This document shows, piece after piece, positions 611 through 3,571 of a stretch of DNA of 64,000 bases (the first letter of the stretch is position 1; the number at the start of each line of letters is the position of its first letter). The position numbers and the translations under genes were made by a program. The DNA comes from Gallaecimonas sp. GXIMD4217 (GTDB lineage: Bacteria > Pseudomonadota > Gammaproteobacteria > Enterobacterales > Gallaecimonadaceae), in the NCBI RefSeq assembly GCF_038087665.1, contig NZ_CP149925.1, positions 2,976,870 through 3,040,869 on the forward strand. The letters run 5' to 3'. The notes under the pieces are model-generated. The model was not told the DNA's origin. It saw only the letters and a list, made by a program, of their open reading frames with translations, and did no database searches.

Positions 611-636
611 AGGGGCGCTCCGGCGCCCCTTGTTGT
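611..636 (+). terminator. Probable intrinsic terminator after rimK
   Basis: An 8-bp perfect stem (611-618 with 623-630) with loop TCCG follows the rimK stop by three bases. The T-run is poor (TTGTTGT), so termination may be partial. Confidence 0.5.
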
Positions 637-688: not shown

Positions 689-1774
689 ATGCGTATTGCC
701 CTGTTCCTGCTCAGCTTTTTGCTGTTGTTGCCCGCTGCCCTGGCCAATGTCGAAGAGGCCCGCCTGGCCAGGGCCGAGGCCGCCCTGCCCGGCCTGCGGG
801 CCCCCTTTGCCGGGCTGCTCGAAGAACTCGACCGCCACCCAGAGCAAGCCGAAGCCCTGGGCGCGCAAGGCTTTGCCGTCGGCAAGGCCATCGCCCTGGC
901 AGAGGGCGACGACAGGCCCCTGTACTGGTTCCGCCTGGCCGGCAAGGCCAGGCTCAGGGCCGCCCAGCTGGCCCCCATAGCCAAGGACCGCTACCTGCAC
1001 GCCTTCGAGCGGGCCAGCCGCGGCATCAGCGATATCCGCTTCGACGACGGCATTGGAAAAATCCTGATCACCGGCTTCGATCCCTTCTTCCTGGACCGCA
1101 ACATCGGCCAGTCCAACCCCTCGGGCCTGGCGGCACTGCGCCTGGATGGCCAGATCATCGCATACCAGGGCAAGCAGGCCCGCATCGAGGCGGCCCTGGT
1201 GCCGGTGCGCTTCGCCGATTTCGACCAGGGCCTGATCGAAACCCTGCTGCTGCCCCATTACAAGGACGACGGCGTCGACATGGTGGTGACCATTTCCATG
1301 GGCCGCCAGGACTTCGACCTGGAGCGCTTCCCGGGCCGCAACCGCAGCGCCGCCGCCCCGGACAACCTCAATGTGCTGACCGGCGCCAGCAAGGAGCATC
1401 CCCTGGCGCCGCGCCTTCATGGCAAGCCGCTCAGGGGGCCCGAGTTCGTGGAATTCAGCCTGCCGGTGGCGGCCATGGTGCAGACCGCTCCCTTCCCCGT
1501 CCACGACAACAACAAGGTCGGCACCCTGAGCGGCGACCTGGCGCCGACCAGCCTGGCCCAGCTCAAGGGCGAGACCAGCGTCAGCGGCGCCGGCGGCGGC
1601 TACCTTTCCAACGAGATTTCCTACCGGGCCATCCGCCTGCGCAACAACCTGGGCAGCTCGGTGCCGTCCGGCCATATCCATACCCCCAGGATTTCCGGTT
1701 ACGAAAAGGACAAGGAAATCGCCATCGTCGAACAGATCCGGGCCATGCTGGCCCGCTCGCTGGCAGCCCTCTGA
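689..1774 (+). CDS. Secreted pyroglutamyl-peptidase I-like protein with Ser at the Cys position
   Basis: A 361-residue protein with a clear signal peptide (about residues 1-19, ending LLPAALA). After an about 100-residue N-terminal extension, residues 124-335 resemble peptidase family C15 (pyrrolidone carboxyl peptidase, which removes N-terminal pyroglutamate): ILITGFDPF at 125-133 matches the family's opening motif, MGRQDFDLERF carries the likely Glu (E212), and GHIHTPRI the likely His (H331). The segment that normally reads YLCN around the catalytic Cys reads YLSN here (Ser307). Cytoplasmic C15 enzymes are about 215 residues, so this one is longer and exported. Either it uses Ser, or it has lost peptidase activity and binds peptides. 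Start chosen because it gives the signal peptide directly. Confidence 0.75.
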   Translation: MRIALFLLSFLLLLPAALANVEEARLARAEAALPGLRAPFAGLLEELDRHPEQAEALGAQGFAVGKAIALAEGDDRPLYWFRLAGKARLRAAQLAPIAKDRYLHAFERASRGISDIRFDDGIGKILITGFDPFFLDRNIGQSNPSGLAALRLDGQIIAYQGKQARIEAALVPVRFADFDQGLIETLLLPHYKDDGVDMVVTISMGRQDFDLERFPGRNRSAAAPDNLNVLTGASKEHPLAPRLHGKPLRGPEFVEFSLPVAAMVQTAPFPVHDNNKVGTLSGDLAPTSLAQLKGETSVSGAGGGYLSNEISYRAIRLRNNLGSSVPSGHIHTPRISGYEKDKEIAIVEQIRAMLARSLAAL

Positions 1775-1834: not shown

Positions 1835-3571
1835 TTACATCCGCTCCAGGGTCTTGATGCCCAGTAGCGACAGCCCCTGCTTGAGGGTCCGGGCGGTCAG
1901 TGCCGCCAGCTTGAGGCGGGAGCCCTTGATGGCCTCGTCTTCCTGGCTGAGGATGGGGCAGCCTTCGTAGAAGCCGGAGAACAGCCCGGCCAGCTCGAAC
2001 AGGTAGGCGCACAGGTGGTGGGGGCAGCCTTCCCGGGCCACCACGTCCACCGCTTCCTCGAACTGCACCAGCTTCAGGGCCAGGGCCTTCTCCTGGGGCT
2101 CGACCAGGCGCAGCTCGGCCTGGAGCTGGCTGGGATCGATGCCGGCCTTGCGGAAGATGGACGCCACCCTGGTGTAGGCGTAGAGCATGTAGGGGGCGGT
2201 GTTGCCCTCGAAACTGAGCATGGCGTCGAAGCTGAAGATGTAGTCCGAGGTGCGGTGCTTGGACAGATCCGCGTACTTGACGGCGCCGATGCCAACGGCA
2301 TGGGCGATCTCCTTGAGCTCGTCCTCGCTGAAGCCTGCATCACGCTCGGCGACCAGCTTGTAGGCCTTGTCCTCGGCCTCCACCAGCAGGTCGATGAGCT
2401 TGACGGTGCCGCCGCTGCGGGTCTTGAAGGGCTTGCCGTCCTCACCGTTCATGGTGCCGAAGCCCAGGTGCTCCAGGCTCATGGCCTCGGGCACGAAGCC
2501 GGCCTGTTTGGCCAGGGTGAACACCTGCTTGAAGTGCAGGGCCTGGCGCTGGTCCACGAAGTACATGGCGCGGTCGGCCTTGAGCACCTTGGCGCGGTAG
2601 CGCATGGCCGCCAGGTCGGTGGAGGCGTACAGGAAGCCGCCGTCGGCCTTCTGGACGATGATCGGCAGGGGTTCGTCGTCCTTGCCCTTGAACTCGTCGA
2701 GGAACACGCACTTGGCGCCCTGGTCTTCCACCAGCAGGCCCTTGGCGTCCAGATCGGCCACTACCTGGGCCAGATCGTCGTTGTAGGCACTCTCGCCCAT
2801 GACGTCGTCGCGGCTCAGGCTGACGTTGAGGCGCTGGTAGATCTCGTGGCAGTGGCTCAGGGAGATGTCGTTGAACTCGCGCCACAGCTTGTTGCAGTAC
2901 TCGTCGCCGGACTGCAGCGCCACCACCAGCTCCCGGGCGCGGTCGGCGAAATCGGCGGACTCGTCGAAACGCTGCTTGGCGGCGCGGTAGAAGGTCTCCA
3001 AATCGGACAGCTCCAGCTCGGCCTGGGTGTTGCCCTGGGCGCGCAGCTCCTCCATGTAGGCCAGCAGCATGCCGAACTGGGTGCCCCAGTCGCCGACGTG
3101 GTTCTGGCGGATCACCTTGTGGCCCAGGAATTCCAGGGTACGCACCACGGCGTCACCAATGATGGTGGAACGCAGGTGGCCCACGTGCATCTCCTTGGCC
3201 AGGTTGGGGGAGGAGTAGTCCACCACCACGGTCTGGGGCTGGGCGCGGCTCACGCCCAGATGCGTGTCGGCCAGAGCCAGCTCCGCCTGGGCCGCCAGGA
3301 AGGCCGGCTTGAGGAAGAGGTTGATGAAACCGGGACCGGCGATCTCCACCTTGTCGGCGATGTCGGACAGGTCCAGGTTATCCAGAACCGCCTGGGCGAA
3401 CTCCCTGGGGTTCTGCTTCATTCGCTTGGCCGCCCCCATGACACCGTTGGCCTGATAATCGCCAAACTGAGGCTTGGCCGATTGGCGCACCGCCGCCGGC
3501 GTGCCTTCAGGTGCGCCCGCTGCCACCATGGCAGAGGCGATCTTGTCATTGAGGAGGGTTTGAATGTTCAC
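1835..3571 (-). CDS. argS: Arginyl-tRNA synthetase
   Basis: A 578-residue class I aminoacyl-tRNA synthetase that charges tRNA-Arg in the cytoplasm. The HIGH-type signature appears as [13 protein letters not shown] near residue 130 after the Arg-specific N-terminal tRNA-binding domain. The C-terminal anticodon-binding part contains the DALRA-type helices ([35 protein letters not shown]) and ends [10 protein letters not shown] as in other ArgS proteins. Length matches the family (about 577). The ATG is preceded by an AGGACGG-type ribosome binding site. It lies 63 bases downstream of the YeeZ-like gene on the same strand, so the two could be cotranscribed. Confidence 0.97.

Follow-up and report, generated by a model that had tools for sequence, protein, structure and literature searches.

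A family of predicted exported proteins carries a serine at the place of the catalytic cysteine of peptidase family C15, and one member is encoded near the start of the 64,000-nucleotide window analysed here, from Gallaecimonas sp. GXIMD4217. Ser307, Glu212 and His331 of the window protein are invariant in 96 of 96 relatives, a set of non-independent rows that collapses to 72 clusters at 90% identity and 40 at 70%; the three residues are among 59 of 361 positions that are invariant across the set, in which the other 95 members show 45-62% identity to the window protein. From the sequence and a structure model, we lean towards reading the window protein as an exported serine hydrolase on the C15 (clan CF) fold, with a putative Ser307-His331-Glu212 triad and a changed substrate.

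The gene and the parts of its product are collected in Table 1. The first-pass annotation had described an exported protein with an extra N-terminal domain of about 100 residues and had numbered the catalytic positions Glu212, Ser307 and His331. All of this holds: a signal peptide is predicted with a probable cut before N20, the additional domain is present and predicted as a five-helix domain, and the numbering agrees with the codons located for the three residues. The gene is preceded by a RimK-like ATP-grasp gene at 14 to 607, near the window edge, and on its other side lies argS, at 1835-3571 on the opposite strand. The hairpin found between the RimK-like gene and the Ser-type gene suggests that the latter may be transcribed alone, at a scan count close to chance level (two terminator-like sites observed in the region, 1.3 expected from shuffles). 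An inverted repeat, AAAAAGGCGGCC..GGCCGCCTTTT at 1791-1817, was noticed by eye between the convergent stop codons of the Ser-type gene and argS, and is absent from the output of the terminator scan.

Table 1 Coordinates of the Ser-type gene, the parts of its product and an adjoining site within the window
Feature	Position	Strand	Details
Ser-type C15-like exported protein gene	689..1774	+	Intact ORF, ATG start, 361 aa
Signal peptide, residues 1-19	689..745	+	MRIALFLLSFLLLLPAALA; putative cleavage ALA/N before N20
N-terminal helical domain, residues ~20-118	746..1042	+	Five helices in models; conserved through the family
DDRPLYWFRL motif, residues 74-83	908..937	+	Contains residues invariant in 96/96
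C15-like domain, residues 122-361	1052..1771	+	PF01470; VIA-align Z 22.2 to 5z48
Glu212 (GAG), catalytic Glu place	1322..1324	+	Glu in 96/96; Asp in two Tenacibaculum rows
Ser307 (TCC), catalytic Cys place	1607..1609	+	Ser in 96/96; Cys in 65/65 Cys-type rows
His329	1673..1675	+	Phe in 65/65 Cys-type rows
His331 (CAT), catalytic His place	1679..1681	+	His in 96/96 and in 65/65 Cys-type rows
Terminator-like hairpin between the RimK-like and Ser-type genes	611..630	+	Consensus scan only

The kinship with C15 proposed earlier is borne out by family models and by structure. PF01470 is the sole Pfam match of the window protein (1.8e-9; 38.3 bits against a cut-off of 22.7), and the scores against the narrower models fall far below their cut-offs, at 32.2 bits against 201.75 for TIGR00504 (the NCBIfam pyroglutamyl-peptidase I equivalog) and 33.2 against 199 for PRK13197. 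A phmmer search of PDB chains aligned SGAGGGYLSNE on the nucleophile stretch of Pyrococcus furiosus PCP, with E212 and H331 on its Glu and His, and a profile-profile alignment with ten canonical C15 proteins likewise placed Ser307 on Cys, His331 on His and Glu212 on Glu, so that two alignments agree with the original proposal of a serine at the cysteine place with Glu and His retained. The AlphaFold2 model (pLDDT 88.0, pTM 0.87) superimposes through residues 120-361 on the pGlu-bound PCP I of D. radiodurans (5z48) with rmsd 2.6 over 195 residues. C15 enzymes rank first for the model in both Foldseek and VIA-align, and among the rows shown they alone reach a Z of at least 18.7. Searched by itself, the N-terminal domain had no counterpart in Foldseek at a threshold of E 0.001, and its best VIA-align match, to a designed protein, has a Z of 6.7, within the chance range of helical bundles.

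The next fold group, purine nucleoside phosphorylases and MTA/SAH nucleosidases, follows at a Z of about 11 with 7-12% identity in the rows shown; it has the overall alpha/beta core in common with the window model, and its nucleoside site finds no support in the window protein. That a group with other chemistry has the same fold at a lower score, and that Ser-His-Glu sets serve esterases and transferases, would fit a serine acyltransferase or esterase rather than a peptidase, a reading we regard as improbable given that the nearest relatives of known structure are, without exception, C15 enzymes that cleave amide bonds.

Free variation at position 307 had been set beforehand as the outcome that would speak against a meaningful substitution; the survey of homologues gave serine throughout. 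The 96 rows comprise 16 matches from 59 genomes around the window, its own included, and the best 80 of 278 confirmed GTDB relatives, each gene being started at the first Met of its open frame; the peptide patterns behind the GTDB relatives do not touch residue 307. Three repeat fetches of places already counted (L017, L098 and L099) and a 20-bit match over 64 model positions (L100) were excluded, and two of the rows counted (L007 and L018) apparently come from one Neiella contig. Among 11 divergent rows, with identities down to 29%, none departs from Ser307, Asn308, Glu309, His329 and His331, and 10 keep Glu212. A tblastn search of plasmid records added eight relatives from three phyla (Streptomyces, Kitasatospora, Tsukamurella, Burkholderia, a Comamonadaceae bacterium, two Tenacibaculum and Enterobacter), all with YLSNE and GHxH, and with Glu at position 212 in six and Asp in the two Tenacibaculum. 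The serine is also present in a further, lipoprotein-like relative (L187).

For comparison, a PF01470 search of the order and phylum samples supplied 65 Cys-type rows, 45 canonical and 20 divergent, the latter from other classes of the phylum; all 65 have Cys, Glu and His at the corresponding places. A tree was built of 66 rows: 23 of the 45 canonical, all 20 divergent Cys-type and 23 Ser rows, the last drawn from the 96 (16 rows) and from the eight plasmid-borne relatives (seven, L173 being omitted). In it, a branch supported at 100/100 sets the Ser rows apart from all the others, on a long stem of 2.76 changes per column. The divergent Cys-type group (L147-L166), which scores 43-121 bits to PF01470, splits from canonical C15 in the same tree with 95/75 support.

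The codon at position 307 is TCN in 96 of 96 rows, and TCC and TCT are one base away from Cys codons. Other invariant or near-invariant serines (Ser110, 142, 203, 220 and 311) use both TCN and AGY, and Ser145 uses TCN only; set against the mixed codons at other serines, the exclusive use of TCN at 307 implies that no trace of Cys or Thr passing states is left there. Two trivial accounts were rejected. A sequencing error or a single decayed copy is ruled out by the serine in all four sampled congeners and in the 96 relatives, and a transfer of the nucleophile role to another cysteine is ruled out since the window protein contains no Cys at all.

The serine is accompanied by other fixed differences from the Cys-type rows, for which 16 of the 96 Ser rows were used in the alignment. 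The position two residues ahead of the catalytic His holds Phe in all 65 Cys-type rows and His (His329) in all 96 Ser rows, and position 201 holds Gly in all 65 and Thr in all 96. Along with the fold and the Glu and His of the triad, the window protein keeps the TGFxPF and NP motifs of C15 (pyroglutamyl peptidase I or pyrrolidone-carboxylate peptidase), the frame of the nucleophile (Gly303, Asn308) and the GxxHxP frame around the His; beyond the three substitutions, it differs from C15 in its signal peptide, its N-terminal helical domain, a longer stretch before the nucleophile and its lack of cysteine. After residue 35, 87 of the 96 Ser rows have no Cys, compared with one to seven in the 45 canonical rows, and this near-absence fits a compartment where thiols oxidise. 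A hydrophobic N-terminus is present in 95 of the 96 relatives by a crude window score; three sequences (L015, L171 and L187) look lipoprotein-like by eye. Full-length members in the alignment have the N-terminal helical domain alongside the Ser-type domain, and the DDRxLYWxR motif of the former is nearly unchanged: D74, D75, R76, L78, W80, R82 and L83 are invariant in 96 of 96, the motif is present in all seven plasmid-borne rows that cover it, and one sequence (L185) departs from the pattern.

According to PMC12445089, clan CF holds one family, C15, with a Glu-Cys-His triad. Because the Cys nucleophile of C15 is replaced by Ser in 96 of 96 rows, while Glu and His are retained in 96 of 96 (with Asp for Glu in two of the eight distant rows), the family is, by its sequences, most aptly described as a Ser-type sister group of C15. 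A search of the open-licence literature found no paper on a serine C15 protein. The idea that the protein is a one-off variant, acting as a slow peptidase or as a binder of pyroglutamyl peptides, gives way to a separate multi-phylum branch with fixed residues of its own.

How far the substrate of C15 has been carried over is indicated by 39 canonical positions that are at least 95% conserved: in the comparison with 16 Ser rows, 16 of these positions are kept, 22 are changed and one falls in a gap. Phe130, Phe133, Asn143, Pro144, Arg206, Glu212 and the GxxHxP frame are retained, and Phe165, Ile91 and Gly69 (L101 numbering) are changed. The retained set, together with the annotation of relatives as pyroglutamyl peptidase, would accommodate a serine-type pyroglutamyl peptidase that acts on the C15 substrate with a nucleophile adapted to an oxidising periplasm. 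We hold this to be rather unlikely, given the loss of more than half of the near-invariant positions; moreover, the four sampled congeners keep an ordinary C15 enzyme as well, so that in these genomes the serine protein would not simply be a replacement. With so much of the canonical site altered, pGlu specificity is doubtful and pGlu, the ligand first suggested, becomes less likely; we infer a substrate other than ordinary pGlu-peptides.

Under the favoured serine hydrolase reading, the protein would be exported by the Sec route and its signal peptide removed. Ser307 of the C-terminal domain, activated by His331 and backed by Glu212, would then be the nucleophile that attacks an amide bond, or a similar one, in an extracytoplasmic substrate. 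The strict co-conservation of the helical domain, with its DDRxLYWxRL motif, makes it probable that this domain lies against the catalytic domain and contributes to the substrate site. Against catalysis of this kind stand the loss of activity on Cys to Ser exchange in canonical C15 enzymes, the Asp in place of Glu212 in the two Tenacibaculum rows, and the fact that a conserved Ser/His/Glu set is also compatible with a binding site. A non-catalytic binder, which would have lost catalysis with the Cys to Ser change and would now bind a pGlu-like or other peptide in the periplasm, is indeed in keeping with the many changed positions around the site, and such a change usually kills a thiol enzyme. 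Inactive relatives, on the other hand, usually let the triad drift, and here all 96 rows combine Ser307 with His331 and Glu212 and codon 307 is TCN only; we consider the binder possible but unlikely.

The family is patchily distributed, occurring in 13 of 398 genomes sampled across the phylum; of these 13 loci, one (L187) was missed by the motif pattern and identified on reading. Shewanella, Ferrimonas, Neiella, Colwellia, Pseudoalteromonas and Iodobacter are among the named contigs that carry it within the best 80 of the 278 relatives. The window genome has the Ser form and no other PF01470 protein, and the four sampled congeners carry both forms; a general replacement of the cytosolic enzyme was rejected on these grounds. 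At 3.35 Mb, the window genome lacks the ordinary C15 gene that is present in all four congeners (3.8-4.2 Mb).

Among loci L001-L016, with flanks of up to 1.5 kb, the RimK-like neighbour occurs only at the window's own locus, and hence no conserved operon is claimed. In Shewanella, SprT-like, EndA-like, RsmE-like and GshB-like genes often adjoin the family (53-54 of 81 stretches compared), named by resemblance and from the portion of PMC3480492 at hand, and a gene of beta-lactamase/transpeptidase type adjoins a family member in 17 loci. That same portion reports a 'peptidase C15' orf beside the blaOXA-48-like genes of Shewanella, and the neighbours it gives (LysR, OXA-type beta-lactamase, SprT, EndA and RsmE) are recovered around the family in the Shewanella loci and on pOXA436; there the orf is treated as a neighbour gene only, its active site going unmentioned, whereas all rows here have Ser. 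On the Enterobacter asburiae plasmid pOXA436 (NZ_KY863418.1), a member adjoins blaOXA-436 and a SprT gene, with an ISCR1-family transposase close by, in a gene order that matches the Shewanella chromosomal order. No near match to this copy was found in an E. coli genome collection, and searches of phage records, viral contigs, PADLOC and PHROGs gave nothing informative on the family.

On the plasmid CP116296.1 of Tenacibaculum finnmarkense, a 594-aa protein with the Ser-type domain (L170:3194-5504) is encoded in a type VI secretion-like cluster. Here the helical and Ser-type domains are fused to another N-terminal region. TssD and a baseplate-V gene precede the gene, and a 186-aa ORF whose N-terminus resembles a signal sequence overlaps it; the deposited record of a second Tenacibaculum strain (L173) splits the region into several shorter ORFs. 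From gene order, the layout could be that of an effector with a periplasmic immunity protein. C15-like domains are listed in PVC-type and polymorphic toxins in PMC3482391, an effector-like context similar to that of the T. finnmarkense protein. The window protein, for its part, carries a signal peptide of its own and lacks a secretion-system neighbour, its gene lying between the RimK-like gene and argS; among the loci read, secretion context is confined to the two Tenacibaculum relatives. As a speculative extension, to which we give little weight, a serine-nucleophile branch of clan CF may act on an envelope peptide outside the cytoplasm (for example, on a gamma-glutamyl or other non-standard peptidoglycan bond), and some Bacteroidota may have made of it a type VI effector that is paired with an immunity protein directed to the periplasm.

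The presence of serine in place of cysteine at the active site in several phyla suggests, at the level of sequence, an undescribed serine-type branch of the C15 fold. If this is true, a naturally fixed serine version with its linked changes would form, together with the Cys-type enzymes, a clean pair for studying how a hydroxyl nucleophile can take the place of a thiol within a single fold, and the label 'peptidase C15' or 'pyroglutamyl peptidase' now attached to relatives in Shewanella, Streptomyces and Kitasatospora, including the blaOXA-48 neighbour, would be corrected.
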